Shown here piece by piece: positions 12,210-36,419 of a DNA stretch of 49,896 nucleotides. Position numbers and translations under genes: made by a program. The notes beneath the pieces were generated by a model, which saw only the letters and a program-made list of their open reading frames with translations, did not search any database and was not told the DNA's origin. Source of the stretch: an uncultured Candidatus Melainabacteria bacterium (GTDB taxonomy: Bacteria > Cyanobacteriota > Vampirovibrionia > Gastranaerophilales > Gastranaerophilaceae). Numbering within the stretch: the stretch's first letter is position 1; every line of letters begins with the position of its first letter. The stretch covers positions 1-49,896 of the forward strand of contig CANAJP010000006.1 of the NCBI GenBank assembly GCA_947361615.1. Reading direction: 5' to 3'.

Positions 12210-12219
12210 GGAGCAAAAT

Positions 12220-13536: not shown

Positions 13537-13864
13537 TAAACTTTATTCTCCGTTATTAATTCACTCCGTCAAAGCTTGTGAAGCTCTAAAAGCTAATCGA
13601 TTTCTGGGATTTGATGGTCAATATTGTAAATCTGGCAAGAAAGCTCTAGGTATAATAGACGTTTCTACTGAAAAAGACCAGATGGCTCCCATCGCGATTA
13701 CCGGGATTCTTCTTATTGAAGCCGCTGAAAATATCAACTGTGGTGATGCTATAACTTCAGATGGTTATGGTCGTGCAATAAAACTTGGAAGTGGAAGTTC
13801 AAACGGTATTGCATTAGATGACGGAGCCAAGGGTCAATTAATCAGAATTATAAGAGGAATTTAA
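13529..13864 (+). CDS. capsid cement/decoration protein (DUF2190-like)
   Basis: 111 residues with the DUF2190 cement pattern: ALKANRFLGFDGQ, then LGIIDVSTEKDQMAPIAITGILLIEAAENINCGDAITSDGYGRAIKLG, then a short C-terminal strand. These proteins trim the capsid surface of siphoviruses and Mu-like myoviruses. It overlaps the preceding gene (ATGTCTAA) and ends 3 nt before the next. Confidence 0.82.
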   Translation: MSNKLYSPLLIHSVKACEALKANRFLGFDGQYCKSGKKALGIIDVSTEKDQMAPIAITGILLIEAAENINCGDAITSDGYGRAIKLGSGSSNGIALDDGAKGQLIRIIRGI

Positions 13865-13867
13865 GAA

Positions 13868-14311: not shown

Positions 14312-14711
14312 AGAAATAGAAAATTCTATAATTGAAAAATTAAAAGCATCTTTCCCAGAAGTTCTCGTCCAAGGTTTTCCTGACAAACCGGCGGAGTTTA
14401 TTCTCCTCCATCCAGTCGGAGCATTGTTGGTTCACTACCAAGGTAGCAACTATACAAATTCTAATGCATTATCTTTCATTTCACAAGAAAACAAAAAAGA
14501 ATTTTCAATTACGATTATTACTCGCAATTTACGAGAAAACCGTGGAGCTTATGAATACATTGATGCCATTAAATCTGTTTTAACGGGTTTTCAGCCTAAT
14601 GAATGCACTAAACTAATACCAACAAAAGATTTTTTCATTTCTGAAAACACCGGTATTTGGCAGTACGGAATTAATTTTTCGCTATCTACAATCAATATTC
14701 AAAACTATTAA
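14301..14711 (+). CDS. Mu gp37-like protein (DUF1834)
   Basis: 136-residue protein of the DUF1834 (Mu gp37) family, a probable tail terminator/connector. Segments are IREIENSIIEKLKASFPEVLVQGFP, then FSITIITRNLRENRGAYEYIDAIKSVLTGF, then a C-terminal strand ending in GINFSLSTINIQNY. The gene overlaps gp36 and lies just before the sheath gene. Confidence 0.85.
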   Translation: MNIREIENSIIEKLKASFPEVLVQGFPDKPAEFILLHPVGALLVHYQGSNYTNSNALSFISQENKKEFSITIITRNLRENRGAYEYIDAIKSVLTGFQPNECTKLIPTKDFFISENTGIWQYGINFSLSTINIQNY

Positions 14712-14739
14712 CATTTACCCACTAACACTAGGAGGTGCT

Positions 14740-15972: not shown

Positions 15973-16148
15973 TGTTTGTCAAAGTAAATGAGGAAGGACA
16001 GCTTGAAGTTCATACAGATAATTTTGATCTTTGCTATTCCTGCAAAAATATCCTCAAATGTCCACTAATTCATGCCCTCAGTAAAGAATATGCCTTTTTG
16101 CATTACTCGGATGTAGAAATCCGAAATTGTGGTCTATTTAAAAAATAA
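15972..16148 (+). CDS. 58-residue Cys-containing small protein between sheath and tube
   Basis: A short frame starting at the TAATG overlap with the sheath stop, and ending 11 nt before the tube gene. The product MFVKVNEEGQLEVHTDNFDL continues with CYSCKNILKCPLIHAL and ends IRNCGLFKK. Four Cys in CxxC...C...C spacing suggest a metal-binding knuckle. The tight packing in the operon and the overlap with the sheath stop support a real gene. A second Cys-rich small protein (24553-24768) has a similar CPL segment. Function unknown. Confidence 0.7.
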   Translation: MFVKVNEEGQLEVHTDNFDLCYSCKNILKCPLIHALSKEYAFLHYSDVEIRNCGLFKK

Positions 16149-16159
16149 TTGGGAGTTTT

Positions 16160-16681
16160 ATGTCGAAAATCGAAATTAATAAGCTGACGAACGCTAATGT
16201 TTACATGAACGGCACCAATTTACTTGGACGAGCTGAAGAAGTTCAACTGCCGCAAATAAAACACAAAATGGCTGAACACAAAGCTCTCGGCATGGTCGGT
16301 TCAGCAGAGTTTTTTGCCGGAATTGATAAGTTAGAATGCAAAATCAAATGGAACGCATTGTACCCGAATGTTTTGCGTACCTGTGCTAATCCGTTTTTAG
16401 CAACAATGATACAAGTTCGTGCCAATCTTGAAACATACAACGGTGCCGGAAGAATTAAAGAAGTTCCGGCAACGGCATTCTTAATCGGAACTTTTAAAGA
16501 ATTCCCTCTCGGAACAATTAAACCTCACGAAAATGCAGAGTATGAAACAACGATGAGTGTTACATACGCAAAGCTCATCGTTGATAAGCAGGAAATTTTC
16601 GAAATCGATGTTCTACAAAATATTTACAAAGTCGGAATGGTTGATATGCTCGCTACATTCAAGAAAAACGTAGGAGCATAG
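16160..16681 (+). CDS. major tail tube protein
   Basis: 173-residue tail tube (P2 FII-like). Patterns are INKLTNANVYMNGTNLLGRAEEVQLP at the N-terminus, then FAGIDKLECKIKWNALYP, then GTFKEFPLGTIKPHENAEYETTMSVTYAKLIVD. It follows the sheath, as in P2 and Mu. GGGAG precedes the start. Confidence 0.93.
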   Translation: MSKIEINKLTNANVYMNGTNLLGRAEEVQLPQIKHKMAEHKALGMVGSAEFFAGIDKLECKIKWNALYPNVLRTCANPFLATMIQVRANLETYNGAGRIKEVPATAFLIGTFKEFPLGTIKPHENAEYETTMSVTYAKLIVDKQEIFEIDVLQNIYKVGMVDMLATFKKNVGA

Positions 16682-16682
16682 T

Positions 16683-18146
16683 GTGGAAGATTCAGTTCTT
16701 AAAAAAGCCAATTCAAAAAAGCATATAACCGAAGAAATTGCAACTCGTAAACGTGCTTTGAATTTTTATTCTTTAGCAAATATTCTTCCGGATCCAGATA
16801 TAGTCTTGCGTAAACAGGGCAAAGATATGAAGATTTATAGGGAATTACTCTGTGATCCTCACGTTTTTGCTTGTACTCAATCTCGAAAAGCCGGAGTTCT
16901 ATCTCTTGATTGGGCAATCAATCGAGGGGGAGATAAAGACGAACATTCAGAAAACATCGAAAAATTACTCAAGCAATTGAATGTTTATAAATTAATTTCT
17001 GACATTCTTGAAGCAACCCAATTTGGCTTTCAGCCTTTAGAGATTATTTGGCATAAAGATAAATCGGGATATATTCTACCCCAAAAAGTTATTGCAAAAC
17101 CACCTGAATGGTTCTGTTTTGATGACGAGAATAATTTAAAATTTCGTACTAAAGAAAATTATTACGGAGAAATTGTTCCTGATAAAAAATTTCTGCTTGC
17201 TCAAAATAATCCAAGTTATAACAACCCTTATGGTGAACGCACACTTTCTCGTGTATTTTGGGCTGTAACCTTCAAAAAGGGAGGGATGAAGTTTTGGGTA
17301 GTATTCACGGAAAAATACGGAATGCCACATTTAATAGGTAAACATCCTCGTGGTGCATCCAAAGAAGAAACCGACACTCTTGCCGATATGCTTGAGGATA
17401 TGGTACAAGATGCGATTGCTGTCATTCCTGATGATTCTTCAGTTGAAATTCAAGAGGCAAATAAATCTTCGTCTGCTGAGATTTACGAAAAATTAATCGA
17501 CAAGATGAATTCCGAAATCTCAAAAGCAGTTCTCGGACAAACTCTTACAACGGAAATTGGCTCAACGGGAAGTTATGCCGCTGCAAATACTCACATGGCA
17601 GTTCGTCAAGACATTATTGATGCTGATAAAAAACTCGTTGAGAGTGTTATTAATCAATTAATTCGTTGGATTTATGAAATCAATTTTTCAAATGCCGACG
17701 TTCCTGTTTTTGAAATGTATGCACCTGAAGATGTGGATTTAACTTTAGCACAACGAGATAAAATTCTGTCTGAAACTGGAGTCAAATTTACAAAAGAATA
17801 CTTTATCAAAAATTATGGATTAGAAGATGAAGATTTTGAAATAAGAGAGGATTTTTATCCAACGCAAAATCCTAATTTTAAAGAATTTAAACAAGAAGAT
17901 GAAGAACTGACACCGGGACAGGAACAACTCGAAAATCTGTTCAGCTTTATATCTGAAACCAAACTTTCTGAACAAGCTCAAAATCTTTTAAATCCGTTTT
18001 TATCACTCGTTGATAGTTGCGACAGTTACGAGGCGTTTGAAGAATTACTCAACGAAAAAAATCTGCATAGCAAAACCTTTGAGCAAGATTTACAAAAAGC
18101 ATTATTCCTGTGTGAACTCCAAGGCAGGTCTGATGGACTTGAATAA
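16683..18146 (+). CDS. portal protein (Mu gp29-like, DUF935)
   Basis: 487-residue portal of the DUF935 family. Marks include LPDPDIVLRKQGKDMKIYRELLCDPHVFACTQSRKAGVLSLDWAI, then LEATQFGFQPLEIIWH, then YGERTLSRVFWAVTFKKGGMKFWVVFTEKYGMPHLIGKHPRG, then GQTLTTEIGSTGSYAAANTHMAVRQDI. The start is GTG at 16683, with AGGAG 6-7 nt upstream. Unusually, it comes after the tail tube, not next to the terminase, which is on the opposite strand 6 kb away. It overlaps the methyltransferase gene by 14 nt. Confidence 0.93.
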   Translation: MEDSVLKKANSKKHITEEIATRKRALNFYSLANILPDPDIVLRKQGKDMKIYRELLCDPHVFACTQSRKAGVLSLDWAINRGGDKDEHSENIEKLLKQLNVYKLISDILEATQFGFQPLEIIWHKDKSGYILPQKVIAKPPEWFCFDDENNLKFRTKENYYGEIVPDKKFLLAQNNPSYNNPYGERTLSRVFWAVTFKKGGMKFWVVFTEKYGMPHLIGKHPRGASKEETDTLADMLEDMVQDAIAVIPDDSSVEIQEANKSSSAEIYEKLIDKMNSEISKAVLGQTLTTEIGSTGSYAAANTHMAVRQDIIDADKKLVESVINQLIRWIYEINFSNADVPVFEMYAPEDVDLTLAQRDKILSETGVKFTKEYFIKNYGLEDEDFEIREDFYPTQNPNFKEFKQEDEELTPGQEQLENLFSFISETKLSEQAQNLLNPFLSLVDSCDSYEAFEELLNEKNLHSKTFEQDLQKALFLCELQGRSDGLE

Positions 18147-18987
18147 AATTTATACCGGGAACGCACTTGAGGTTTTAAAAACTCTGCCTGAGGGTTCCGT
18201 TAATATGTGCATTACTTCCCCACCATATTGGGGATTAAGAGATTATAAAACAAATCCTGCAATATGGAATGATGGATGGCAGGGCGAACTCGGAGCGGAG
18301 CCAAGTTTTAATCAATACATAAATCATCTGTGCGATGTTTTCGATAAAGTTAAACGAGTTTTAAAAGATGATGGAACTTGTTGGGTAAATATTGGCGATA
18401 GCTACAATAAAAAGTCTTTAACTCTTATTCCTTTTCGTTTTGCACTTGAAATGTGCAACAGAGGATGGATTGTTAGAAATGTTATTATATGGCAAAAAAC
18501 AAATGCAACACCGCAGAGTGCAAAAGATAGATTCACCGTTGATTTTGAATATTTGTTTTTCTTCTCTAAAAATAAAAAATATTACTTTGAACAACAATTT
18601 GAACCTTTTAAGACTTCTACTTATCAACGAGGACTTAGAAATTTTACAGATAATAAAAGTTTAAATTATCAGGGTTATGGCAAAACTCAACAAAAAAACT
18701 TTCATCAAAAAGTAATAAATAATGAATTATCCGGTAGAAATAAACGCACAGTATGGCAAATTGCAACACACGCTTATCATGGAGCACACTTTGCAGTATT
18801 TCCACCCGCTCTTATTGAACCCCCGATTAAAGCAGGATGTCCTGAAGGTGGTATTGTTTTAGATCCATTTATTGGTAGCGGCACGACCGCTTTTGTCGCA
18901 GAAAAATTAAATCGCAACTGGCTTGGAATTGAGCTTAATCCTGAATATGCAAAATTAGCCGAAGAGAGAATCTCTAAAAATAAATAG
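18133..18987 (+). CDS. site-specific DNA methyltransferase (beta class)
   Basis: 284-residue DNA methyltransferase (adenine-N6 or cytosine-N4). Catalytic motif IV is TSPPYWGL (residues 28-35) near the N-terminus, and the AdoMet-binding motif I is LDPFIGSGTT near the C-terminus, followed by NRNWLGIELNPEYAKLAEERI. The order IV-then-I marks the beta class. The start at 18133 lies inside the portal stop region; the frame is open to 18010 but the extra part covers the portal. No restriction enzyme is adjacent, so it probably protects phage DNA. Target sequence unknown. Confidence 0.88.
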   Translation: MDLNKIYTGNALEVLKTLPEGSVNMCITSPPYWGLRDYKTNPAIWNDGWQGELGAEPSFNQYINHLCDVFDKVKRVLKDDGTCWVNIGDSYNKKSLTLIPFRFALEMCNRGWIVRNVIIWQKTNATPQSAKDRFTVDFEYLFFFSKNKKYYFEQQFEPFKTSTYQRGLRNFTDNKSLNYQGYGKTQQKNFHQKVINNELSGRNKRTVWQIATHAYHGAHFAVFPPALIEPPIKAGCPEGGIVLDPFIGSGTTAFVAEKLNRNWLGIELNPEYAKLAEERISKNK

Positions 18988-18994
18988 GAGTTAT

Positions 18995-19945
18995 ATGTCC
19001 CCAATTTCTAAAGAAGAAGCTGCTATGAAAAGAAATTTTCTTAAGCAGCGGCAGAGTTTGCCTTTAAAATTAAAAATTGAATTATCAAAAAATAGAATTA
19101 AGCAATTTTATGAACACTTTGATGGCAAAGTATATATTTCTTTCTCAGGCGGAAAAGATTCAACAGTTCTATTGCACCTTGTTCGTTCTTTATTTCCTGA
19201 AGTCCCTGCTGTGTTTGTTGACACAGGCTTAGAATATCCCGAAGTTAGGAGTTTTGTTAAATCTTTTGCTAATGTAGTCACACTTCGTCCAGAAATGCCA
19301 TTTAATAAAGTAATTACAGAGTACGGCTATCCAGTAATTAGTAAAGAAGTCGCTCAATTTATTGAGGATAATCGTAGAAACCCGAATGGATATACTGCCA
19401 AAAAGTTTGATCCGAATAGTGATTATGTAAAAAAATACGGTTCTCGTTTTTGTCTTGCAAAATGGAACCACCTCAAGGATAGTGACATAAAGATATCTTC
19501 TCAATGCTGCCGAATTATGAAAAAAACTCCTGCAAAGAAATTTGAAAAGGAGTCAGGATTAAAACCATATATAGCCACAATGGCAGCCGAGAGTAATTTA
19601 AGAAAACAAGAATACATCAAAAAAGGCTGTAATTCGTTTGAATCCAAACGCCCTGCCTCAACTCCGCTTGGATTTTGGACTGAGCAAGATGTTCTTCAGT
19701 ATTTGGTTGAAAACAATCTGTCCTATTGTTCGGTCTATGGCGAGATCAAACAGGATACAAGTGGAAAATATTACACAACAGGAGCAAAACGCACAGGATG
19801 TATGTTCTGTATGTTTGGAGTTCATAACGAAAAATCCCCGAATAAGTTTGAACTCATGCGTGAAACTCATCCAAAACTTCACGATTATTGCATTAATAAA
19901 TTAGGCTGCGGCAGAGTGCTTGATTTTATAGGAGTCAAGTATTAA
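18995..19945 (+). CDS. PAPS-reductase-like PP-loop protein
   Basis: 316-residue protein of the phosphoadenosine-phosphosulfate reductase/ATP-pyrophosphatase superfamily. The PP-loop SGGKDS is at residues 51-56, VDTGLEYPEV at 76-84, a QCCRIMK segment at 170-176, and GCMFCMFGVH at 268-277. The CC and CxxC cysteines could bind an iron-sulfur cluster, as in DndC-like and some PAPS reductases. AGGAG lies 4 nt before the start. In phages such proteins are common but their role is not settled: options are sulfur-based DNA or tRNA modification, or real sulfate reduction. Here it sits between a DNA methyltransferase and Mu F. Confidence 0.82.
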   Translation: MSPISKEEAAMKRNFLKQRQSLPLKLKIELSKNRIKQFYEHFDGKVYISFSGGKDSTVLLHLVRSLFPEVPAVFVDTGLEYPEVRSFVKSFANVVTLRPEMPFNKVITEYGYPVISKEVAQFIEDNRRNPNGYTAKKFDPNSDYVKKYGSRFCLAKWNHLKDSDIKISSQCCRIMKKTPAKKFEKESGLKPYIATMAAESNLRKQEYIKKGCNSFESKRPASTPLGFWTEQDVLQYLVENNLSYCSVYGEIKQDTSGKYYTTGAKRTGCMFCMFGVHNEKSPNKFELMRETHPKLHDYCINKLGCGRVLDFIGVKY

Positions 19946-20700
19946 TGATTGAACTCAAAGGTTTATTTAAACTCGCTCCTGCTAAGGCAATAAGGTATTT
20001 TAGAAACAAAAAGAATGCTCTTTCGTGGGATTGGTATGAGATTTGGCAAGATGCCCACAAAAAATCATTCACAGTTGCCAAAGTTATGCGAGAAGATATT
20101 CTAAAAGATATACGCTCATCACTTGATAAAGCACTGTCTGAGGGTAAAACTTTCCACGAATTTCAAAAAGAACTCAAACCGATTCTTCAAAAGAAAGGTT
20201 GGTGGGGGGAGCAGTTCGTTGTTGATTCGAAAGGAAATGCCGAAAAGGTTCAACTCGGCTCAATGTTTCGTCTTAAAACCATTTACCACGTAAATATGCA
20301 AACAGCATATATGACTGGCAGATATAACACTCAGATGGATAACGTTGACAACCGACCGTATTGGGAATATGTTGCAGTTTTAGATTCTCGAACTCGTCCT
20401 GAACACGCAGAACTTAACGGACTGGTTTTACCATATGATGACCCATTTTGGAAATCTTTTTATCCGCCAAATGGTTGGCGATGTCGTTGCCGTGTGAATG
20501 CACTTTCTAAATATGCACTTGATAAAAAGAAATCGATATTGAGTTCTTCAGCCGGGAATTTATCCCAAGAAATGCATCTCGTTTCCAAAAAATCGGGTGA
20601 ATATAAGCCTGTTACTGTTTATACAGACCCTTTGACAGGTAAGAAAATTGCACCTGATGTCGGATGGTCTCGTAACCCTGCATCTGAGTTTGTTGCTTAA
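19945..20700 (+). CDS. head morphogenesis protein (Mu F-like)
   Basis: 251-residue minor head protein of the Phage_Mu_F family. The typical C-terminal block is present: YWEYVAVLDSRTRPEHAELNGLVLPYDDPFWKSFYPPNGWRCRCRV. It starts within the stop of the preceding gene (TAATG). In Mu it follows the portal; here two enzyme genes have been inserted between. Confidence 0.92.
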   Translation: MIELKGLFKLAPAKAIRYFRNKKNALSWDWYEIWQDAHKKSFTVAKVMREDILKDIRSSLDKALSEGKTFHEFQKELKPILQKKGWWGEQFVVDSKGNAEKVQLGSMFRLKTIYHVNMQTAYMTGRYNTQMDNVDNRPYWEYVAVLDSRTRPEHAELNGLVLPYDDPFWKSFYPPNGWRCRCRVNALSKYALDKKKSILSSSAGNLSQEMHLVSKKSGEYKPVTVYTDPLTGKKIAPDVGWSRNPASEFVA

Positions 20701-20702
20701 TC

Positions 20703-20731
20703 TTGAACAGGGTTTGAACAGAATTTGAACA
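20703..20731 (+). promoter_or_regulatory. three 11-bp-phased TTGAACA repeats before the Dam gene
   Basis: TTGAACA begins at 20703, 20714 and 20725, each one helical turn apart, in the short gap before the Dam start (SD AAAGGAG at 20738-20744). The heptamer also occurs twice at 11-bp spacing before the tail chaperone on the other strand (8620-8637). Confidence 0.55.
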
Positions 20732-20750
20732 TAACTTAAAGGAGTTTAGA

Positions 20751-21560
20751 ATGACTATTGATAAAAAATCTTTGATTAATTGGGTTGGCGGTAAAAGATT
20801 ATTAAGAAAAGTAATTGAGCCATTGATTCCTACAGATATTAAATCATATATTGAGCCATTTGGTGGTGGCGGTTGGATTTTGTTTTATAAAGATAAATGG
20901 GCGGACTTAGAGATTTATAATGACCTCGACAGTCGTCTTGTAAATCTATTTCGCATCGTAAAATATCACCCGAATGCTTTTAAAGAAGAGTTTAATTATC
21001 TTCTTGGCTCTCGTGAAATGTTTTTTCAATTTTTGAATTCAACTCCGATTACAGATATTCAAAAAGCAGTCCAATTTTATTATTTAATCACTCGTTCATT
21101 TGGCGGTAAAGGCAACACTTTGGGAACTGTAAAATGTTCTTCTAGCGGAGCTTGTAAATCCTTAAAAAATGTTCCTGAAAAAATTGATGCAATACATAAA
21201 CGTCTTGATAAAGTTATGATTGAAAATCGTGACTTTGAAAAACTCATTAAACAATACGATTTTGAAAATGCGTTTTTCTACTGTGATCCGCCATATTCTA
21301 AAGGCTGTGGCTATGAGGTTACATCAACCGAAGATTTCGACCATGAACGACTGAGAGAAGTTCTTGGCAATATCAAAGGTAGATTTTTGCTTTCGTATGA
21401 CGATTCACCCAAAATTAGGGAACTATACAAAGGTTATGAGATGGTTGAAATCGAACGCCAAAACGGAATCAACAACAGACAGGGAACGGACAGACTAAAC
21501 AAAACCTTTAAAGAGTTATTGATTGCTAATTACTCCATCAAGGATAAATTCAATGGCTAA
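20751..21560 (+). CDS. Dam-type DNA adenine methylase (D12 class)
   Basis: 269-residue N6-adenine methyltransferase of the alpha/D12 class. It has INWVGGKRLL (9-18) and YIEPFGGGG (33-41) for AdoMet binding, ITRSFGGKGNTLG, and catalytic FFYCDPPYSKG (175-185). Members usually methylate GATC, but the target here is not proven. It lies between Mu F and gpG, and its last codons overlap the gpG start. Confidence 0.9.
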   Translation: MTIDKKSLINWVGGKRLLRKVIEPLIPTDIKSYIEPFGGGGWILFYKDKWADLEIYNDLDSRLVNLFRIVKYHPNAFKEEFNYLLGSREMFFQFLNSTPITDIQKAVQFYYLITRSFGGKGNTLGTVKCSSSGACKSLKNVPEKIDAIHKRLDKVMIENRDFEKLIKQYDFENAFFYCDPPYSKGCGYEVTSTEDFDHERLREVLGNIKGRFLLSYDDSPKIRELYKGYEMVEIERQNGINNRQGTDRLNKTFKELLIANYSIKDKFNG

Positions 21561-22017
21561 TGAGCCGATTGAAATAAAAATCGATAACAAGGCTGTTAAT
21601 GAGAAATTACTTGAACTTGCAAAACGAGGTGAAAACCTGCGGCCGTTAATGAAAAACATCGCAGGTATTTTTGCATCCTCAACTGAAGAAAATTTCAAGG
21701 AAGAGGGAAGACCTGACAAATGGGTTGATTTAGCAGAATCAACAAAAAAACAAAGAACTAAAAAGCAAAAGACGAAAAAACAAAAATGGTCAGGAAAAAT
21801 TTTGCAAGTTGAGGGTCAACTTGCATCCTCTGTTTCGACCCAGTATGATGACAATTCCGCGGTTATAGGTTCAGGCGAAGATTATGCAGCTATTCACCAA
21901 CTTGGTGGGAAAGCCGGGAAAAATAAAAAAGTTTCAATACCCGCACGACCATATTTGCAACTGACTCAGGAAGATTTAAATGAAATTATAGAAATAGTTG
22001 AAAAGTATCTTGGCTAA
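21553..22017 (+). CDS. virion morphogenesis protein G (Mu gpG/P2 S-like)
   Basis: 154-residue tail completion protein. The N-terminal IKIDNKAVNEKLLELAKRGENLRPLMKNIAGIF, the middle WVDLAESTKKQR and the C-terminal AIHQLGGKAGKNKKVSIPARPYLQLTQEDLNEI are the family signature. A KK-rich repeat (residues 64-75) precedes WSGKILQVEGQLASS. Start at 21553, overlapping the Dam stop by 8 nt, with AAGGA 8 nt upstream. Last structural gene of the prophage on this side. Confidence 0.88.
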   Translation: MANEPIEIKIDNKAVNEKLLELAKRGENLRPLMKNIAGIFASSTEENFKEEGRPDKWVDLAESTKKQRTKKQKTKKQKWSGKILQVEGQLASSVSTQYDDNSAVIGSGEDYAAIHQLGGKAGKNKKVSIPARPYLQLTQEDLNEIIEIVEKYLG

Positions 22018-25716: not shown

Positions 25717-26514
25717 ATGAAAACTTCACTAGCTACCGAATCTCTTATACCTATAAGACGTATTTTATCAAATGCTGAACATATAAATACTTATGTACCT
25801 GCGTTTAACAGAATGAGACAGGGTAATGAAACTCATGTTATAATAGTACCCAAAATTATAACAAAACTAGTTAATAAATTTTTCAAACCAAAAGAACTGG
25901 AAACTGTTCATGCCCCTATTATAACAAAGATGGAAATGCCATATTATCGTTTCGGAGAAATTCCAGATCCACAGGATTTAGCATACAACTCTGCGCAAAG
26001 AAAACTTGCAGAAATCTACGTTAGACAGGCTCAATCCGGCATACCGGGTTATACAGTGGAACGGAATATTGAAGCTATGAGAAGCGTACCAGATGTAGTC
26101 AAAGATATGCTAAATCCGTTAGATATACAAGCGGACGGTCACATCGACCAAAACACTATTAATAAAGCATATGATATTGCTAAAAAAGCTAAAAGTATCT
26201 CACCATATGAATATCCACCAATGTTCGCAGGAAAACCTGAAGAGATTTTATCTGAAACATCGGAAACATTAGAATCACTCAAACCCCATATAACATCAGA
26301 AATAACTTCTCTTGAAGATAATATTGAAATATTAGACCCAAGATTCAAAATTTTTGAAGAGGGTAGTCCAAATCTAGATATTGATTCAGAGCATTTAAGC
26401 AGTATAACATCTAATGTAGGAGAGGCTCTGGATTCAGATATCATACAAAATATTATAAAAAAATCAGGCGATGACATCGCTGATATGTTGGATGCTTTCA
26501 CAGATTTATACTAA
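25717..26514 (+). CDS. unknown acidic protein
   Basis: 265 residues with no domain I recognise. The N-terminal ~80 residues are basic and rather hydrophobic (NETHVIIVPKIITKLVNKFFKPK); the middle holds GEIPDPQDLAYNSAQRKLAEIYVRQAQSGIPGY and SISPYEYPPMFAGKPEEI; the C-terminal third is acidic with repeated Ser/Glu/Leu helices. No SFKG-type N-terminal motif. Tail-to-tail with the next gene, 4-nt overlap. Confidence 0.65.
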   Translation: MKTSLATESLIPIRRILSNAEHINTYVPAFNRMRQGNETHVIIVPKIITKLVNKFFKPKELETVHAPIITKMEMPYYRFGEIPDPQDLAYNSAQRKLAEIYVRQAQSGIPGYTVERNIEAMRSVPDVVKDMLNPLDIQADGHIDQNTINKAYDIAKKAKSISPYEYPPMFAGKPEEILSETSETLESLKPHITSEITSLEDNIEILDPRFKIFEEGSPNLDIDSEHLSSITSNVGEALDSDIIQNIIKKSGDDIADMLDAFTDLY

Positions 26515-27572
26515 ATAATAGCTAATCCTGCCGATAGAGTTTTTACAATTACTGAAACATTACCACCATTATTTACAGCTTTATAATATGCAGCAATACT
26601 TTCTCCATTGCTTACAATATTTGACAATAATTTAATATAACTTTCAATCAAAGGATGTCCCAGTTTCTCCATTTCTTTTAATACTTTTTTGACGAATACC
26701 AAATCCGTATTTGTTAAATACGGAGAAATTAAATCGATATTTGTTCGGCATTGTTTTATTTTGTGAACATAGGAACGAGCAATAGGATGAATACCATTAT
26801 GAATATAGGTATCACAATAGTTACAATAGTCTCCATGAATATACTTCATTGCTTGTTGCTGTTCACTAACACGACCAAAACGCAATGCAATTGTTCCGGG
26901 AACACGTTCAACCCATTTTTGTCCAGTAGAGTATAACTCTTTAACATCACTCACTTTATTACTAACATGGGTAAAATATCTTCTTGATATTTCATTAAAT
27001 GCCTCCAACGCATTTTTAAATGTCACGGTATCCCCCTGACGAAATGTTAAAAATAGCTGTTCAAAATTTTTCGTTGATTGTCCCCCACCGTATCCGGACA
27101 GAACATCTAAGTTAAGTTCCGCAGGTTTTATTTTATTAACCAAACTTGAATTCATAATTCCATCCCTAAAAGTTTCAACATCTATATGGTAAAATGATTT
27201 TACACTTGAATCTTCTGATGCAATTTTACCAATAATAGCTGTTGCATCAACTTTTTGTGTTTCCAAAAGACTATTAATAGATAAAGAGGTTTCATTGTCA
27301 AAATTGGCAACCAAATCAAAAGGATTTCCAATTCTTCTCTTTCCGAGCTTTTCAAGTTCTCTTTCTTCATTTATTGTTCTTTTTAAATTAATTAACCCTT
27401 CATGTTCTTGCTCAGATTTCGTATTTATAACCAATAAATCCTCACAACTTTGGATAAGTGAAACTCTATGCTGCCTAATAAACTCATCTAAATTATCTAG
27501 AGTCAGTTCTTCACTTGTTCCTCTAAAACTCAATTGTTTATTTGAAATATTATTAATAGAATAAATTTTCAT
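26511..27572 (-). CDS. unknown protein with MKIxxINN/SFRG N-terminus
   Basis: 353 residues. It opens MKIYSINNIS with SFRG at residues 15-18, a signature shared with four or five following genes. The body is mostly helical; CNYCDTYIHNGIHP (250-263) has a CxxC and two His that could bind a metal. The C-terminus is hydrophobic (NVSVIVKTLSAGLAII). I recognise no family. It is the only gene of the group on the minus strand, divergent from the protease-like gene at 27712. Confidence 0.7.
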   Translation of the reverse strand: MKIYSINNISNKQLSFRGTSEELTLDNLDEFIRQHRVSLIQSCEDLLVINTKSEQEHEGLINLKRTINEERELEKLGKRRIGNPFDLVANFDNETSLSINSLLETQKVDATAIIGKIASEDSSVKSFYHIDVETFRDGIMNSSLVNKIKPAELNLDVLSGYGGGQSTKNFEQLFLTFRQGDTVTFKNALEAFNEISRRYFTHVSNKVSDVKELYSTGQKWVERVPGTIALRFGRVSEQQQAMKYIHGDYCNYCDTYIHNGIHPIARSYVHKIKQCRTNIDLISPYLTNTDLVFVKKVLKEMEKLGHPLIESYIKLLSNIVSNGESIAAYYKAVNNGGNVSVIVKTLSAGLAII

Positions 27573-27711
27573 ACTACCTCAAATACATTATAAACCCTCA
27601 CTGCCAAAATTTTTGCGTATTGTATAAACAAACATTAACTTATGTAAATTTTATGCGTGTCAACTAGCAAAAAAATTCCAGTAGAGGTTTAATAAAATTT
27701 CGGGGACACTT

Positions 27712-28551
27712 ATGCTAATTAAGAGTAAGAACAATTATAAAGATAAAATATCTTATGGCGGTGGGCTAACGAAACCTATGATTGCCGATATAAGATCTAC
27801 TGATGTTTCAAGAGTACAAAATTATTTTGCACATAATAATATTAATACTGAATTCCAAAATAACAGGTTTATTGCTTGGGCTTCAGTGAGAGTTTTTGAA
27901 ATTTTAAAATCATTCCAAGAAAATTTCGGACTAAAACTAGGATTCCCAACAAATATATTAGTAAAAGATGTTAACTCACTAAATCTTCCTAATTTAGAAA
28001 ACACTTACGGTTTTTGTAATTTAGTTCCAAGTAAAATCCACAAGAACTCGGATGAAATCACACCGGCTAAAAGTATAATCTTTAACAAAAATTTCCCTTG
28101 GCATAACATTAATGAAATTAGTGATTTTGATTTTTACACCACACAAAACTCATCAACGGACTTCTTTTTAGAGTCCGTTTTTCATGAGTTTGGGCATATA
28201 ATTCACGAAGACCATTTACTTCAAAATTTTAATATTAATACTGTTTTAGAAAAATTAATTTCATTAACAATGCCTAAAACCGTAGAACATTATCAGGATA
28301 CATATGGTTCTCTGGTAGAAAAAGAAATTTGTAGATATGCAAAAAATGAACCTCTTGATTTAATTGCTTGTGATATGAGCAAACGCTTTATTGACAATAT
28401 AGACCTCAATTCACTTTTAACAAACGGCAATCCATTTAAAAACTCACCTTATGAAAGATTTTATACGTTAAGAAGCCTATTCAAGGATAAAACACCAATT
28501 ACGTCCTTAATAAGACAAATATATCAAGGGAAAATACCTACAACAGATTAA
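27712..28551 (+). CDS. putative zinc metallopeptidase (metzincin-like motif)
   Basis: 279 residues. Residues 158-168 are HEFGHIIHEDH: HExxH plus a His at the third metzincin position, HExxHxxHxxH, where metzincins usually have Gly in place of the middle His. It is preceded by an SVF helix start, as in true zinc peptidases. Downstream E/D residues (SLVEKEICRYAKNEPLDLIACDM) are helical. N-terminus: ISYGG at 13-17, a loose form of the SFKG motif of its neighbours. No signal peptide. Activity is inferred from the motif only; substrate unknown. Confidence 0.65.
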   Translation: MLIKSKNNYKDKISYGGGLTKPMIADIRSTDVSRVQNYFAHNNINTEFQNNRFIAWASVRVFEILKSFQENFGLKLGFPTNILVKDVNSLNLPNLENTYGFCNLVPSKIHKNSDEITPAKSIIFNKNFPWHNINEISDFDFYTTQNSSTDFFLESVFHEFGHIIHEDHLLQNFNINTVLEKLISLTMPKTVEHYQDTYGSLVEKEICRYAKNEPLDLIACDMSKRFIDNIDLNSLLTNGNPFKNSPYERFYTLRSLFKDKTPITSLIRQIYQGKIPTTD

Positions 28552-28585
28552 TAACGCAGTTAAATATATATTGAAAGGAAAGAGT

Positions 28586-30598
28586 ATGAAAATTCAAAAA
28601 ATTTCATCCAACTTACAGACAACGAACCCTAATTCGTTACCGGTATCGCAAAAAAAGAAAACAATGCACAATAATTCAAACCCAATAATGTCATCCACAG
28701 ATCTCGCATTTATGGGATCAAAACTCGACTTAATTAAAGGGTTGTTTAAACCTGCCACAAAAAATCTTGATGATGCAATGATGGTTGGAATAAAAGAGTT
28801 AAATATTTCTCCGGCAATGACGAGGAGATTAACGCCCAAAAGCCAAGCAAGTACCTACGCTGAAATAGTTATGGCAAAAATAAATGCTACAGAAAAACGA
28901 ATAAAAGACTTAGAAGAAACTATAAGAACGCAAGCAAAGCCTAAAAGAGTTGTTGAAGCTGAAGACGATTTAAATTTCTATTACAGTTGGGATGATGCTG
29001 CACAAGAAGCTAAACACAGAGCAAGGGCAGAAAAGGCACGAAAGGCTGAACGCGATAAATACTGGACAGGACTCAAATGGCTATCTGATGGAGACGAAAA
29101 ATACGATATCGAAATGGAACCATATTGGAAAGGGTCTGGAAGACATTGGAGAATAGAAAACAATCTTGAAGAAATCAGGTCTATCATCAATGACCATAAC
29201 ATTTCTATAAACGCTCAACGTGAAACATTAGAAGCTCTTAAGAGAGAAAAAGCATCTTATATGGCAGAACTACAAAGTGCATACTTAGAAGATGTCGTTA
29301 ATCTTACTCTCAATCAAAGAGGAGGCATAAATCAAAGAATTGCCGGATACGATAAAGTTAAAATGCAGATACGACAACATTTTGTTACTCCATTATTAGA
29401 TACCAAAAAGAATCCAACCATAAGCCTACCGAATGCCGTTGTACTCTATGGCGCAACCGGAGTTGGAAAAACTGAAATGCTGCGTGGAATTGAACACGAC
29501 TGCGCGAATGTTGCCAATATCGTTCACTTCCCAATGGATACTCCAATAGATGGTTTTATGAAAAAAATCAAAGAGCTTTTAACTGAAGCTCGACAAAGAT
29601 ATATAAAAGATACAAAAAGAACAATCCTATTAATAGATGAAGCAGAAAAATATATGTGCATGAGTTCTGAAAAAGCAAACCGATTAGCTTCCAGTTTTGA
29701 AGCTGATGATTTTGATGTCCTCGAAAGATATGGGAAATATGATAAAGAAAATATTGATTTTTTAAAATCGCTTCTGGATAGAATATCCGAAGTTCCGAAT
29801 CCTGATAATCCTAAAAGTACCCAAAGTGCAACAACACTATTTATAACAACAAACTATCCTCATCTAATCGATCAAGATTTAATGAGAAGAAAAGGTAAAT
29901 TTCTCCCTATTGCAGTTAAACCGGCAGCAGATGAAGATTTAAAAGCTGTTATTAAACATTATTTCCAACAAAATTCATTGCTGTTGGAACGAACCAAAGC
30001 GGCAGCTCAAAATGACAACTTCACGGAGATTATAAATGGTCAAGTGCGTTTTTCACCTAAAGCTAAAAAACTGCTGATTGAAAAAAGAAACAACGGTACA
30101 TTAAACAATATGTCTATCGACCCAGAACTAAGTGACTGGCCAAATCTTGAACGTTTTATACAATTTATGAACCCATCAGATAAACGTGGGGCTTATAGTA
30201 ACGTTGAAATCCAATTTATGATACGTGAGGCTTTTGAACGTTATATTGAAAACCCATCAAAACCGATGTATAAATATTTCTTTGAAGTTAAAGATGAAAC
30301 ACTCAGAGATATAACACCATTAAGATATAGTAAATTTAAAATGATTTATAAAATGGTTAATGATAAAGTTGACACTGAAGATTTAGGGAAAGCCCAAAAA
30401 GAATTTGCAGATTTGATTCATGCATACCAAAACGGTGAACTTAACGATGAAATGTGTAAAGCTGTCGAAAAACAAATGAAACATATACAAGCTGAATTAG
30501 AAAAATTGGAAGAATTACGTAAGAAAGGTATAAAATTATCTGAAAGCGAACAAAAACAATATGATTTATTTAAAATGTGGTATGATATGTGGGAATAA
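28586..30598 (+). CDS. AAA+ ATPase with N-terminal coiled coil
   Basis: 670 residues from ATG at 28586 (AAGGAAAGAG just upstream; a TTG at 28571 is open but only spans the ribosome site). N-terminus MKIQKISSNL with AFMG at 41-44. Residues ~95-235 are a charged coiled coil. The AAA+ core has Walker A GATGVGKT (289-296), Walker B ILLIDEAE (347-354), sensor 1 LFITTNYP (418-425) and an arginine-rich DLMRRKGKF (431-439). The C-terminal ~70 residues are again coiled. All catalytic residues are present. The family is not one I can name; the next AAA gene (33148) is a degenerate relative. Confidence 0.82.
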   Translation: MKIQKISSNLQTTNPNSLPVSQKKKTMHNNSNPIMSSTDLAFMGSKLDLIKGLFKPATKNLDDAMMVGIKELNISPAMTRRLTPKSQASTYAEIVMAKINATEKRIKDLEETIRTQAKPKRVVEAEDDLNFYYSWDDAAQEAKHRARAEKARKAERDKYWTGLKWLSDGDEKYDIEMEPYWKGSGRHWRIENNLEEIRSIINDHNISINAQRETLEALKREKASYMAELQSAYLEDVVNLTLNQRGGINQRIAGYDKVKMQIRQHFVTPLLDTKKNPTISLPNAVVLYGATGVGKTEMLRGIEHDCANVANIVHFPMDTPIDGFMKKIKELLTEARQRYIKDTKRTILLIDEAEKYMCMSSEKANRLASSFEADDFDVLERYGKYDKENIDFLKSLLDRISEVPNPDNPKSTQSATTLFITTNYPHLIDQDLMRRKGKFLPIAVKPAADEDLKAVIKHYFQQNSLLLERTKAAAQNDNFTEIINGQVRFSPKAKKLLIEKRNNGTLNNMSIDPELSDWPNLERFIQFMNPSDKRGAYSNVEIQFMIREAFERYIENPSKPMYKYFFEVKDETLRDITPLRYSKFKMIYKMVNDKVDTEDLGKAQKEFADLIHAYQNGELNDEMCKAVEKQMKHIQAELEKLEELRKKGIKLSESEQKQYDLFKMWYDMWE

Positions 30599-30602
30599 AA
30601 AT

Positions 30603-32021
30603 ATGAATATAACAAAAATTAATTATAATTACACAAACAATAATAATGATATATCTTTCAAAGCCAAGCTATCAGAAAATGAAATAATGTTTGGGCTAGA
30701 AAGAATTATGAATAGCGGAAGTAAAATTGTTGAAAAGAACATGGATTATTTTGTAGACATGAAACGAGGGAATAATATCGACCCAATAAGAAAGCAAAAT
30801 ATTCAAGAATGGTTAACTGATAAATTATCTCGTGCAACTTCTTTTGACCAAAAACGTGAAGAAAGATTAGCACGAGAAGAAATTGCTTATCGAGAACGTC
30901 AAGAAAACAACAACAAAATTTTACGTGGAATAAAACGACTAATTTCAACAATGCAAAGTTCACGTAATGAGAAAAGCTCTACAAATCCTGTAATTCAAAG
31001 ATTTAATGCTGATTGTGAAGAAGCAAATTTCTTCACGAGATTTAAAGATTTATTCTCTTCATACTTAGAATTAATTCAAAAACCGGTTGAAAAGAAGGAA
31101 GAAAAACCTCTTGAACTAAGCGACATTTTTGAACAAATAGCAAAAGAAAATTTTGGTCTAAACCTCAATGCAAAAGTAGAAGTGGAAGCAACAATATCTT
31201 CTTCCACAAATAAGGCTACAACAATTCATCCACAGACTTCTGCTAAGATTACAGAAAGCCTCAATCCGTCTAACGACCTATTAACACAATTTGAGGAATT
31301 AGAACAACGTAGGATGAAATCTAAACCAAGAACACAAATGACACCTGAAGAAATTGAAGAAGATTGTAAATGGTATAGGGAAGTTTATTACCCACTTCTT
31401 GAAAAAATCAAGCAACAAAACATTTCTACTATTCCGAAAAAATCCTTCTCAGATAATCCGCTTGAACAAGTTCAAGAAAAACACGATTATATTCAGTATG
31501 TTTTATCTAGAATGAGAGACAACGAAGCATCTTACTATGACGGGATGGTAGCTTTTGAAAAATACGGCATTAATGGACCCGCTTTTGAAACCGGAGAGTT
31601 CTCTACGCTGTCATTCATTAGAGGAGATTTCCCAAACACTCCTACTGAAAGATGTGTCAATAAACTCATGGATTTATATGAAAAATTCGCTAAAGGAGTA
31701 TATCTTGATGATGAGGGACTCCTTGCAGGAATAGGCGATGACATTAGTTATATGGGAGTTATTGCTGAAAAAGGAGCTATTACATCCATTCCTCAACTCA
31801 AAAGAGCCTTGGAAAAAGGCAAAAAGTTCATTTGGAGCAATGATGGAATTGATAAATTACACAAAACTTTAACTTATGGGGAAGATGCTCCCTTCAAAAA
31901 CAACCAAGAAGTTGAAGATATTATTCAACAATTCTACCAAACTGCTTTTAACAACAGAACTCCGTTCAAAGATAATTTCGACATTCAAGCTTATGAAAGA
32001 GTTTGGGGAATTAAAAGGTAA
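30603..32021 (+). CDS. unknown protein, shared 247-residue C-terminal domain (copy 1)
   Basis: 472 residues, 4 nt after the AAA+ gene, so the same operon. The start MNITKINYNY carries SFKA at 18-21. Residues ~60-220 are unique, charged and helical. Residues 226-472 (from LLTQFEELEQ) are the same as 105-351 of the product at 32067, with only two substitutions near the end (R/K and I/V). No membrane segment. The shared domain is not one I recognise; it is rich in helices and has a conserved central DNEASYYDGMVAFEKYGING. Confidence 0.75.
   Translation: MNITKINYNYTNNNNDISFKAKLSENEIMFGLERIMNSGSKIVEKNMDYFVDMKRGNNIDPIRKQNIQEWLTDKLSRATSFDQKREERLAREEIAYRERQENNNKILRGIKRLISTMQSSRNEKSSTNPVIQRFNADCEEANFFTRFKDLFSSYLELIQKPVEKKEEKPLELSDIFEQIAKENFGLNLNAKVEVEATISSSTNKATTIHPQTSAKITESLNPSNDLLTQFEELEQRRMKSKPRTQMTPEEIEEDCKWYREVYYPLLEKIKQQNISTIPKKSFSDNPLEQVQEKHDYIQYVLSRMRDNEASYYDGMVAFEKYGINGPAFETGEFSTLSFIRGDFPNTPTERCVNKLMDLYEKFAKGVYLDDEGLLAGIGDDISYMGVIAEKGAITSIPQLKRALEKGKKFIWSNDGIDKLHKTLTYGEDAPFKNNQEVEDIIQQFYQTAFNNRTPFKDNFDIQAYERVWGIKR
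31282..31993 (+). repeat. 712-bp direct repeat, copy 1
   Basis: This block appears identical by eye to 32383-33094 at an offset of 1101 bp. It codes for most of the C-terminal domain of the gene at 30603. Differences begin at 31994 with silent and conservative changes. Confidence 0.9.
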
Positions 32022-32066
32022 TAGCAATTTTTTATATGTTCTTATTTTATATTAACAGGTAGTGTG

Positions 32067-33122
32067 ATGAAAATATTTTCTATAAACAATGTGAATACTA
32101 AATATATTATGTTTGCGAATGCAGATACAATAAAACCTGCCCAAGCTAATACTCAACCAATACAGACAGATACATTTGAGAAGGAGGATAAAAAACTTTC
32201 TACAAATGCCAAAATTGGTATTGGCATAGGAGTTATTGCTTTAGCTACCGGACTTTATTTTTTAACAAGAGGAAAAACTAAAGTCAAATCTAAAAGTAGT
32301 GACTCACTTCCGACTTCAACACCACCTAAAACACCAACCCCAAATCATACACCTACCCCACCAGATTCTTCAAATTACTTACTAACACAATTTGAGGAAT
32401 TAGAACAACGTAGGATGAAATCTAAACCAAGAACACAAATGACACCTGAAGAAATTGAAGAAGATTGTAAATGGTATAGGGAAGTTTATTACCCACTTCT
32501 TGAAAAAATCAAGCAACAAAACATTTCTACTATTCCGAAAAAATCCTTCTCAGATAATCCGCTTGAACAAGTTCAAGAAAAACACGATTATATTCAGTAT
32601 GTTTTATCTAGAATGAGAGACAACGAAGCATCTTACTATGACGGGATGGTAGCTTTTGAAAAATACGGCATTAATGGACCCGCTTTTGAAACCGGAGAGT
32701 TCTCTACGCTGTCATTCATTAGAGGAGATTTCCCAAACACTCCTACTGAAAGATGTGTCAATAAACTCATGGATTTATATGAAAAATTCGCTAAAGGAGT
32801 ATATCTTGATGATGAGGGACTCCTTGCAGGAATAGGCGATGACATTAGTTATATGGGAGTTATTGCTGAAAAAGGAGCTATTACATCCATTCCTCAACTC
32901 AAAAGAGCCTTGGAAAAAGGCAAAAAGTTCATTTGGAGCAATGATGGAATTGATAAATTACACAAAACTTTAACTTATGGGGAAGATGCTCCCTTCAAAA
33001 ACAACCAAGAAGTTGAAGATATTATTCAACAATTCTACCAAACTGCTTTTAACAACAGAACTCCGTTCAAAGATAATTTCGACATTCAAGCTTACGAAAA
33101 GGTTTGGGGAGTTAAAAGGTAA
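32067..33122 (+). CDS. membrane-anchored protein, shared 247-residue C-terminal domain (copy 2)
   Basis: 351 residues from ATG at 32067. N-terminus MKIFSINNVN with MFAN at 15-18. One membrane helix (IGIGIGVIALATGLYFLTRG, ~50-69) is followed by a basic stretch and a Pro/Thr linker (80-100), then the same C-terminal domain as copy 1 (105-351). So copy 1 is soluble and copy 2 is anchored. By the positive-inside rule, the C-terminal domain after RGKTKVKSK would face the cytoplasm. Function unknown. Confidence 0.75.
   Translation: MKIFSINNVNTKYIMFANADTIKPAQANTQPIQTDTFEKEDKKLSTNAKIGIGIGVIALATGLYFLTRGKTKVKSKSSDSLPTSTPPKTPTPNHTPTPPDSSNYLLTQFEELEQRRMKSKPRTQMTPEEIEEDCKWYREVYYPLLEKIKQQNISTIPKKSFSDNPLEQVQEKHDYIQYVLSRMRDNEASYYDGMVAFEKYGINGPAFETGEFSTLSFIRGDFPNTPTERCVNKLMDLYEKFAKGVYLDDEGLLAGIGDDISYMGVIAEKGAITSIPQLKRALEKGKKFIWSNDGIDKLHKTLTYGEDAPFKNNQEVEDIIQQFYQTAFNNRTPFKDNFDIQAYEKVWGVKR
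32383..33094 (+). repeat. 712-bp direct repeat, copy 2
   Basis: Second copy of the block at 31282-31993. The N-terminal parts of the two genes share nothing, so the repeat boundary coincides with a domain boundary. Confidence 0.9.
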
Positions 33123-33147
33123 TAAGTTTTAATGCAGGATATAAAAT

Positions 33148-34407
33148 ATGAGAATATCACCTATTAATAATATATGGAATAATGAATACTCAACACAAAT
33201 AGCTATTCCAAATAAAACCGGCTTATATAACGCGCAGAAACCACAAGACCAATTTTGTAAGTCAAACATAAAAAATTGTTCAAGTGTTCTACCATTTAAA
33301 GGTTTTACTGAAAAAGTTGTAATGGAACATTTTAACGAAATGTTTGTTGGTTTTGAAAAACAAAAATTACAATTAAACGAAATCTTATTGGAACCCTTTT
33401 TTAAATCACGTGTATCACACATATTTAAACGAGCACATAATCCAATACCCCCATCAATTTTACTGCATTCGCCCGATAAGTTGCTTATAAGAAATTTTAA
33501 CGATGCTACGCAAAAAACAATAACTACATTTTTTCCAGAAGATGTTACTAGAATATCAGACATTCCGAATGAACAGTTTCTACCTAGAATAGCAGAAATT
33601 TTAGAAGCAAATAAACCTGCAAAACCTGAATATCCAAGTACACATTTAATTATTATAGAAAATATTGAAAACTATCTAGGAATGAATTACAACCAAGCCA
33701 AAAGACTACGAAATTTCAACTATGATAGCCAAGATATAAACATACTTCAAAGAAATAATAATAGCGATAATATCAACTATTTTAAAAGCTTATTAGATTA
33801 TTGTCACACATCCAGACGTTCAGGGGGGTATGAAACAAGCTTTTTATTTACGTCTTCACGTCCACACTTAATACACCCGGACTTCCGAAGTGGGAAAATG
33901 GAAAAAATAGAAATTCCAAGGTTAAACGATGATGAAACAGTACAACTATTTATAGAACTGCTTCGAGCTAAAATTCCAAATCTGATGAATTTTAATACTG
34001 AACAACTTACTAAAATAAAAGAAACTTGCCAAACAGATGCCGTAAAAGGAGCATTTAATTATGATGATTTAAACAGGCTTGCTCAAGAAATACAGCTACG
34101 CAATAAAGGACAAGATTTCGATTTTATTATCAAATTGACACAGGGTACCCCACGTGCTTTCTCTCCTGAAGATATTATTCGTCAAGAACGAATAACACGT
34201 GTTTTCTCTTACAAACCTACCGAATACGAAATATTAAAAGGTAAATATGAAAACGGAGATATAACAGAAGTTGAACAAAAACTCTTTGAAGAATTAACGG
34301 CAAAAAATAAAATTAAAATTCAAGAATTAGAAGAAAAAGAAAAACTTGGAACAATCACGATCTTAGAAAAAGAAGAATTAAAAAAATTAAAAGAACTTGA
34401 TGATTAA
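33148..34407 (+). CDS. degenerate AAA protein (pseudo-ATPase)
   Basis: 419 residues; MRISPINNIW start and PFKG at 49-52. Line-up with the AAA+ at 28586: the Walker A position reads ILLHSPDKLLIRNF (104-117) instead of VVLYGATGVGKTEML; the Walker B position reads LIIIENIENYLGMNYNQAKRL (167-187) instead of ILLIDEAEKYMCMSSEKANRL; the following DxxDxxxLxR...NIxYFKSLLD and SFLFTSSRPHLI segments match. So both catalytic motifs are lost while the frame is kept intact and the C-terminal coiled region remains. It is probably a regulatory or structural partner of the active ATPase. The frame is unbroken, so it is not simple decay. Confidence 0.72.
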   Translation: MRISPINNIWNNEYSTQIAIPNKTGLYNAQKPQDQFCKSNIKNCSSVLPFKGFTEKVVMEHFNEMFVGFEKQKLQLNEILLEPFFKSRVSHIFKRAHNPIPPSILLHSPDKLLIRNFNDATQKTITTFFPEDVTRISDIPNEQFLPRIAEILEANKPAKPEYPSTHLIIIENIENYLGMNYNQAKRLRNFNYDSQDINILQRNNNSDNINYFKSLLDYCHTSRRSGGYETSFLFTSSRPHLIHPDFRSGKMEKIEIPRLNDDETVQLFIELLRAKIPNLMNFNTEQLTKIKETCQTDAVKGAFNYDDLNRLAQEIQLRNKGQDFDFIIKLTQGTPRAFSPEDIIRQERITRVFSYKPTEYEILKGKYENGDITEVEQKLFEELTAKNKIKIQELEEKEKLGTITILEKEELKKLKELDD

Positions 34408-34491: not shown

Positions 34492-35199
34492 ATGGCAGAA
34501 AAATCTAAAATTGAATGGACCGAATCGACTTGGAATCCAGTTACTGGTTGCACAAAAATCAGTGAAGGTTGTAAGCATTGTTATGCTGAAAGAATGGCGA
34601 AACGTCTATATGCAATGGGACAAAAAAAATATAAAAATTGTTTTAACGTAACGACACATGAAGACTGTTTAGAAGAACCTTTGAATTGGAAAAAGCCTCA
34701 AATAATCTTTGTTTGCTCAATGAGTGATTTGTTTCATAAAGATGTTCCTGATGAATTTATTATCAAAGTATTTGAAGTTATGAATAAAGCATCTTGGCAT
34801 ACATTTCAAGTCTTAACAAAAAGGGCTGAACGGTTGGAAAAAATTGCATCAAAATTAAACTGGACACCCAATATTTGGCTTGGAGTTACAGTAGAATCTG
34901 ATGCACAAAAGAGAAGAATTCCTTACCTAATTAATACACCTGCACATATTAAATATTTATCTATTGAACCTATGATTACAGAAATAAAAGATCTATGTTT
35001 ACAACATATTAACTGGGTTATAGTTGGAGGAGAAAGCGGTCCTGGTGCAAGACCTCTTCAAGAAAACTGGGTTACTAAAATTAGAGATAAATGTATCGAA
35101 AATAAAGTACCTTTCTTTTTTAAACAATGGGGAGGAGTCAATAAAAAAATTGCAGGTTGCGTTTTACAAGGTCGACAATGGAAAGAATTTCCTATTTAA
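34492..35199 (+). CDS. DUF5131/phage Gp37-Gp68 family three-Cys protein
   Basis: 235 residues. It has the family opening [33 protein letters not shown], with Cys 20, 27 and 30 in the three-Cys pattern, and later [42 protein letters not shown] and [15 protein letters not shown]. The family is radical-SAM-like in its Cys cluster but its reaction is not known to me. It usually travels with TcmP, which is exactly the converging next gene here (4-nt overlap). Confidence 0.9.
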
Positions 35200-36419
35200 T
35201 TTTTAATTAAAATTTCTCTTAAATTTTGTTTTCGTTGTAAGGCTTCTGATTTAAGTTTTTTACCATCTTTTGTTAAGTATTTAGATTTAATACGCTCATT
35301 ACAAAGTACACATAAATAATTCTGCTCAATTAGTATGTTTATTGCTTTCTTGATATTTGTTGAAGTAGGAATCTCAGTAGGAGATGCATCTTTCCATGAA
35401 TAAAAGTCATTATACAATTTAGAAAATAATGTTAATAAACATATTGTTTTATTTTTTGTAATTTCTTTTATTTTCTGACTTAACTCAAAATAAGAAACAT
35501 CGTCACAGTTATCAAAAAGCCCTAGTTGTCCATTTTTATTATTAGAAATTTTTTCTGATAACAAGCTAGAATAAGTATCAAGAAATGCACTTGCGACACC
35601 AACCGAGCTAGTTAATAAACATAAATAAAACCTATCGGCATTTTCAAGTTCTCTATCTTTTGTACGTGTAATTGCAACGTTTATAACAAAGTCCTTTTCA
35701 ATATCTTTGAATGCATGTTTTATAAGCCAACGAACGACCACAGCATTATTAAGTTGTTCTATGTCTTTAGCTTGGCGTTTCAATAAACGCAACATACGAA
35801 GTTCAATACCAAAATAATCTGCGATTTTTCTTAAACTATCATCATCGTCTCTACCTAAAATACGTTCATGCGCATTTGTATTAATTAATATTAGAATATC
35901 TTTTAACTTACTATTATCCTTTATTAGTTCTTTTAAACGTGGCAACTTTAATTCTACAGAAAATGGATCTGCAAAAATCATCCCCCATGGGGAATCACTT
36001 AAGCCCAAACTAAAACTATCAACACAATTTTCCCAAGATTCGCTTAACACCGTACAAGCTATCTGGGATTGCAATTTATTACTTTTTAAAAATTCATCAA
36101 CATTTAAAGATAATTTTTCGGCATTTTCAGAATTCTGTTCGCTTAAAAGCATCACCACTTTTTCAATATTATTGGCAGAATTTTCTAATTGTTTCTTCGA
36201 GCTATTTAATGCAATCAAAGGTGAACCAAGATTAGCATCATCAAACTTTCCACAACCCGCATATAAATCTAAATATATAAATTTTCGTCTTTCTTTTTGC
36301 ACATTGTTAAAAGAACTAGAAATAGAAATACAACTATCATAAACGCTCTTAAATAATTTATGCTTAATTGCTGTATGTGGAGCTTCTTCATTAAAATGTG
36401 ATTGAGCGACATCTACCAT
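35196..36419 (-). CDS. tcmP: three-Cys-motif partner protein TcmP
   Basis: 407 residues. N-terminal [13 protein letters not shown]..., then [13 protein letters not shown] (48-59) and GSPLIAL (65-71), then WGMIFADPF: the TcmP family layout, which resembles a methyltransferase-like Rossmann fold (DLYAGCGKF as the AdoMet loop). The second half has a winged-helix-like C-terminus. Named for its steady partnership with the three-Cys (DUF5131) protein; the biochemical role is unsettled. Arranged tail-to-tail instead of as an operon. Confidence 0.85.

Follow-up and report, generated by a model that had tools for sequence, protein, structure and literature searches.

The gut family studied here, the Gastranaerophilaceae, consists of non-photosynthetic relatives of cyanobacteria. 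Non-motile members of the order Gastranaerophilales carry incomplete sets of flagellar genes, which have been read as gene loss (Di Rienzi 2013, PMC3787301; Soo 2014, PMC4040986). Elsewhere, Campylobacter jejuni exports non-flagellar proteins that bear an N-terminal signal through its flagellar apparatus, by way of a flagellum-type gate (PMC2764114), and type III effectors carry N-terminal signals that are enriched in Ser, Thr and Pro and short of acidic residues and Leu (PMC2669295), and that favor Ile as residue 3, Asn as residue 5 and Ser around residues 8-9 (PMC2668754). We found no type III system or N-terminal motif described for Gastranaerophilales, and no type III effector system described for gut Cyanobacteriota. 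Here, we describe six neighboring genes (26511-34407) in a window comprising the whole of contig 6 (C6; 49,896 bp) of a 1.83-Mb draft Candidatus Gastranaerophilales genome, whose products share a short bipartite N-terminus, hereafter the tag. We propose that the six proteins belong to a family-wide set whose short two-part N-terminus is a sorting signal, and that a flagellum-derived, non-flagellar type III apparatus may read it. In this chain the tag is demonstrated and the export route is what we infer; we give the whole a little under an even chance, since the tag is all but certain, export or targeting is its likely role, and type III export of the tagged proteins is somewhat less than an even bet.

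The bipartite N-terminal tag

In its strict form, the tag consists of block 1, M[KRN][IV]xx[IV], a linker, and block 2, Phi[STN]Fx[GAS]. Both blocks of the bipartite N-terminus are found in all six products, and every N-terminus quoted in the preliminary description is present. On the minus strand, 26511..27572 encodes a 353-residue protein with an all-helical body and the tag MKIYSINNISNKQLSFRG. The other five genes lie on the plus strand and encode a 279-residue HExxH metalloprotease-like protein (27712..28551; FHEFGHIIH) with the N-terminus MLIKSKNNYKDKISYGG; a 670-residue AAA+ ATPase (28586..30598; PF00004, Walker A GATGVGKT) that starts MKIQKISSN...LAFMG; a 472-residue protein (30603..32021) that starts MNITKINYN...ISFKA; a 351-residue protein (32067..33122) that starts MKIFSINN...IMFAN; and a 419-residue pseudo-AAA protein (33148..34407) that starts MRISPINN...LPFKG.

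The shared motif exceeds chance and is more widespread than was first noted. At loci of AAA+ homologues, 35/257 genes (13.6%) carry the strict tag compared with 0/1122 internal-Met controls; this is not a genome-wide rate, because the loci were picked by homology to a tagged protein. In random stretches from the family the strict tag begins 5/326 genes (internal-Met controls, 0/1239), and in a 400-kb sample of the window's own genome outside the window it begins 0/348, with a looser tag on 7/348 (control, 0/1238). One could suppose that AT-rich genes simply tend to start Met-Lys-Ile-Asn and that the SF.G of block 2 is accidental, given that the genome is AT-rich (GC content across the window, 0.27-0.40) and that loose tag definitions give some false matches. 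Against this, none of the 3599 internal Met positions across the three sets, each from the same genome or family, shows the strict joint motif; the exact start MKIxxINN has only two occurrences genome-wide, both inside the window, and its reversed control has none; and the anchor residues are conserved across diverging linkers. A degenerate DNA pattern likewise recovers in-frame tags in many genera, in excess of its reversed control. The internal-Met and reversed-pattern controls lead us to reject AT-rich chance, the outcome that the preliminary description had said would overturn it, and we regard its probability as negligible.

Conservation among orthologues points the same way. At orthologous loci of 26511, M1, I3, I6, N7 and F16 are invariant, and at those of 33148, M1, I3, I6, F50 and G52 are, while in both cases the linker differs in length and sequence; anchors are kept and linkers divergent in orthologues of four of the tagged families. 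The metalloprotease at 27712 is the weakest tag case among the six: its relatives start MQIN, MKIN or MEIQ, with M1 and I3 invariant and HEF-H conserved. Aligned with MAFFT, 54 tagged proteins picked so that most are unrelated yield the consensus MxIxxIxxxxxxxNxxxxxxSFxG, and 108 loosely tagged proteins fall into 42 body clusters, the largest with 39 members and some of the singletons spurious. The tag is reused on about 40 unrelated protein families, and tagged bodies include ankyrin, TPR, AAA+ and ADP-ribosyltransferase exoenzyme domains. It is close to certain that the tag itself is real, N-terminal and conserved at its anchors, and it is already strong enough to group many hypothetical proteins.

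Asn, Ser and Gln are abundant in the linker between the blocks, and acidic residues are scarce. In strictly tagged proteins, taken with no composition filter, Asn makes up 18.6% of linkers compared with 8.6% of bodies, and Asp plus Glu 4.4% compared with 15.1%; a second composition test is partly circular, since composition was among the criteria by which its set was picked. None of the six N-termini has the hydrophobic core of a Sec, Tat or lipoprotein signal (maximum 12-residue hydropathy, at most 0.52), in agreement with the preliminary description.

The same description counted six unlike proteins, which overstates their diversity. The bodies are of four kinds rather than six, because 30603 and 32067 share a C-terminal domain of 281 residues (91% identity) and 33148 is distantly related to the AAA+ protein 28586 (E 3e-8). 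The block shared by 30603 and 32067 spans 843 bp at 92.8% DNA identity and stands behind different N-terminal modules, which shows that the tag can spread by duplication and N-terminal exchange. That a few recent events of this kind spread one leader inside the cluster is nevertheless a very improbable account of the whole, since the tag extends over many genera, about 40 unrelated families and divergent linkers, and is not confined to recently duplicated loci; spreading did occur, yet it leaves the conservation unexplained. In the 32067 product, the tag is followed by a DTFEKEDK module, a single likely membrane helix, as read from the sequence, and the 281-residue domain. This module, in the general form D[TSK]FEK.DK and then a single likely membrane helix, is a second recurrent feature close to the start of many tagged proteins (32067-33122 in the window; L055, L056, L057 and L067).

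A flagellum-type export apparatus without flagellin

FlhB (PF01312) is present in 190/192 genomes of the order and FlhA (PF00771) in 50/50, nearly all of which hold a full-length copy and, besides it, a C-half paralogue. Flagellin was found in 0/28 sampled genomes of this family, compared with 21/22 in other families of the order. In the genome that contains the window, NCBIfam models recognize FlhA, FliH, FliF, FliE, FliQ, FliR and FlhB, most of the matches scoring under the thresholds of the flagellar models and the injectisome models alike, so that FlhA/SctV, FlhB/SctU, FliQ/SctS, FliR/SctT and FliF/SctJ are present without flagellin. Relatives additionally hold rod and FliJ/FliK-like proteins, with rod-like genes in L136 and L146. 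The data do not establish the unknown secretion route that the preliminary description thought possible; a candidate machine of known type, a flagellum-like type III export apparatus lacking flagellin, is present in the genome.

These genes are probably the same incomplete set that earlier work ascribed to gene loss (PMC3787301, PMC4040986). In contrast to that reading, the apparatus is found here in nearly all family genomes sampled, and FlhB is 80-97% identical across the listed genomes of the family, which argues for strong constraint on the protein (identity to this FlhB type in sister orders is about 40-55%) and, together with the retention of the apparatus, for a maintained function. Unlike in C. 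jejuni, flagellin is absent and the remainder of the apparatus is retained without it. If the tag marks the cargo of this remnant, it would explain the retention of partial flagellar genes that the literature has interpreted as decay.

The same gene directly adjoins flhB in 9/9 non-flagellar loci read, and was assigned to the sigma-70 family, by its region 4, in 2/2 tested; it lies at 13503-14192 in L139, with counterparts in L127-L136. Nearly all searched genomes of the order also encode a protein consisting of the FlhA cytoplasmic domain (C-half of PF00771, 492 residues; L147:6213-7691, with C9:26249-27277 as the copy in the genome of the window).

The tag as a candidate export signal

We suggest that the tag is a putative export signal read by the retained apparatus (FlhA, FlhB, FliQ, FliR, FliF, FliH and FliE). 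Block 1 and the linker would form an unfolded secretion signal, and block 2 could be where a chaperone or the export gate docks; the metalloprotease, the AAA+ ATPases and the membrane-anchored partner would then work extracellularly or within a target cell. In support of this, the tag resembles type III effector signals (EffectiveT3/SIEVE features; PMC2669295, PMC2668754) in lying at the N-terminus, in being disordered and polar with few acidic residues and little Leu, in favoring Ile at position 3 and in lacking a hydrophobic core, although the disorder of the 26511 N-terminus comes from a weak structure model (predicted local distance difference test score, pLDDT, 59.0; below 50 for residues 1-20). 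The export gate is also encoded in the genome. The tag differs from known type III signals, which are weakly conserved, in its clear two-block motif and nearly invariant Phe. The preliminary description's proposal of a common targeting or export tag on unrelated bodies is partly supported and is the best reading of the tag's N-terminal position, its conserved anchors, the roughly 40 families, a promoter-like element described below and the lack of a Sec, Tat or lipoprotein signal; the type III route is the conjectural part.

A 5'-nucleotidase family lends further weight to an export role. Proteins of this family are normally Sec-exported, whereas here a Sec-like hydrophobic N-terminus was seen in 0/30 members read, and the N-terminus is tagged or tag-like. 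The family is universal (60/60 genomes), and in at least 15 genomes its gene is no more than about 3 kb away from flhB.

Tagged genes also often share a promoter-like element. Upstream k-mers yielded TAGCAAA, an A/T stretch, and GTTT or GTTTTA about 20-23 bases from the start of the element. In the form TAGCAAA-N14-GTTTTA it precedes 27712 in the window (27665..27696, plus strand; TAGCAAAAAAATTCC...GGTTTAAT), and a variant read by eye faces 26511 (27586..27618, minus strand; ACGCAAAAATTTTGG...GGTTTATAAT). The element accompanies 16/52 loosely tagged genes compared with 27/761 others (p 5.6e-10), many of the 27 having tag-like N-termini by eye, and 4/20 strictly tagged genes compared with 39/793 (p 0.018); these p-values are optimistic, since some of the genes compared had also served to find the element and orthologues were counted more than once. 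Among seven scrambled control motifs, six show no association and one a weak one (p 0.016). The window's own genome contains 62 sites, compared with 26 for the reversed pattern, and the intergenic sites inspected there lie mostly upstream of tag-like genes. A sigma28-type promoter is not enriched upstream of tagged genes. The wider idea that Gastranaerophilaceae possess a dedicated delivery system, in which a type III apparatus kept after filament loss would serve many unrelated cargo families through a shared bipartite signal and a dedicated promoter possibly read by the flhB-linked sigma factor, is a tentative one that we would sooner doubt than assert. If the tag does mark cargo of the apparatus, it would provide a sequence handle for cataloguing the proteins that these commensals, most of them uncultured, deliver to their surroundings or hosts.

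The link between tag and apparatus is circumstantial. On co-occurrence with a secretion machine, which the preliminary description proposed to check, the picture is mixed: tags are found in this family, in which the apparatus is present, and none in lineages without FlhB, but no convincing ones in sister orders with FlhB either. Several observations weigh against type III export. No convincing tag was seen in 331 kb from those sister orders, whose FlhB is of this type (about 40-55% identity), so across the class the tag and the apparatus are not distributed together. The promoter-like element is missing before FlhA, FliE and most flhB genes; it precedes flhB in 1/9 loci. No outer-membrane ring, secretin or channel was identified, with no search aimed at a secretin or needle, and MEL.A1, which has an incomplete flagellum, is without L and P rings according to Di Rienzi et al. 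(PMC3787301). Some of the proteins with a partial tag have a cytoplasmic look (a GH77 glucanotransferase, CheR). A minority of the family's ADP-ribosyltransferases have a full tag and one has a Sec signal, a mixed result in which many of the genes compared are long open reading frames cut by the locus edge. Finally, conservation this strong is unusual for type III signals. The ADP-ribosyltransferase exoenzyme domain (PF03496) itself occurs in 85/239 family genomes, and not in the window's own genome.

Some of these points would suit another function. The tag could be an intracellular assembly or localization motif that binds a common scaffold or membrane partner, the operon products (AAA+, pseudo-AAA, membrane-anchored and ankyrin proteins) forming one complex. 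Tagged operons of conserved order do include AAA+ ATPases and a single-helix membrane protein, cytoplasmic-looking proteins are among the partial-tag bearers, and secretion signals are usually longer and less well conserved than the tag. Tagged genes, however, also occur alone and in unrelated families elsewhere in the genome, the 5'-nucleotidase, an exported enzyme elsewhere, starts similarly, and the disordered, acid-poor composition resembles that of export signals; we consider assembly somewhat unlikely. Alternatively, the tag may direct export or surface targeting by a different machine, known or unknown. The finding of the tag in this family alone while the FlhB type is class-wide, and the scarcity of the tagged genes' promoter element before apparatus genes, would fit such a machine, but the type III apparatus, the sole machine examined, is kept throughout the family, and we think this alternative distinctly unlikely.

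Relatives and surroundings of the cluster

The three closest relatives of the cluster (L055-L057) keep the order metalloprotease, AAA+, middle protein, pseudo-AAA, one of them with parts missing. Relatives of the AAA+ protein 28586 are nearly all Candidatus Gastranaerophilales or metagenome-assembled genomes of similar kind; whole tagged operons also occur on contigs labelled Clostridia and Muribaculaceae (L189, L193), which are probably mis-binned contigs of metagenome-assembled genomes. Pfam and NCBIfam searches with single tagged bodies gave few matches, and the structure model of 30603 is weak (pLDDT 66.6; predicted template modelling score 0.46), with no match in the PDB at E up to 0.001.

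A phage origin was rejected, as IMG/VR holds no relatives of 28586. An anti-phage defense system was also rejected: PADLOC models gave no full match over the protein for any of the six, 28586 alone giving weak AAA+ matches. The gene pair adjoining the cluster (34492-36419) matches the PADLOC candidate systems PDC-M41/M30. On the other side lies an untagged gene for a 265-residue protein (25717..26514, plus strand; MKTSLATESLIPIRRIL...), and similar-looking genes flank the cluster in L055 and L056. Further upstream, 5754-22017 is prophage-like, with a tail tape measure gene at 5754 and a Dam-type methyltransferase gene at 20751.
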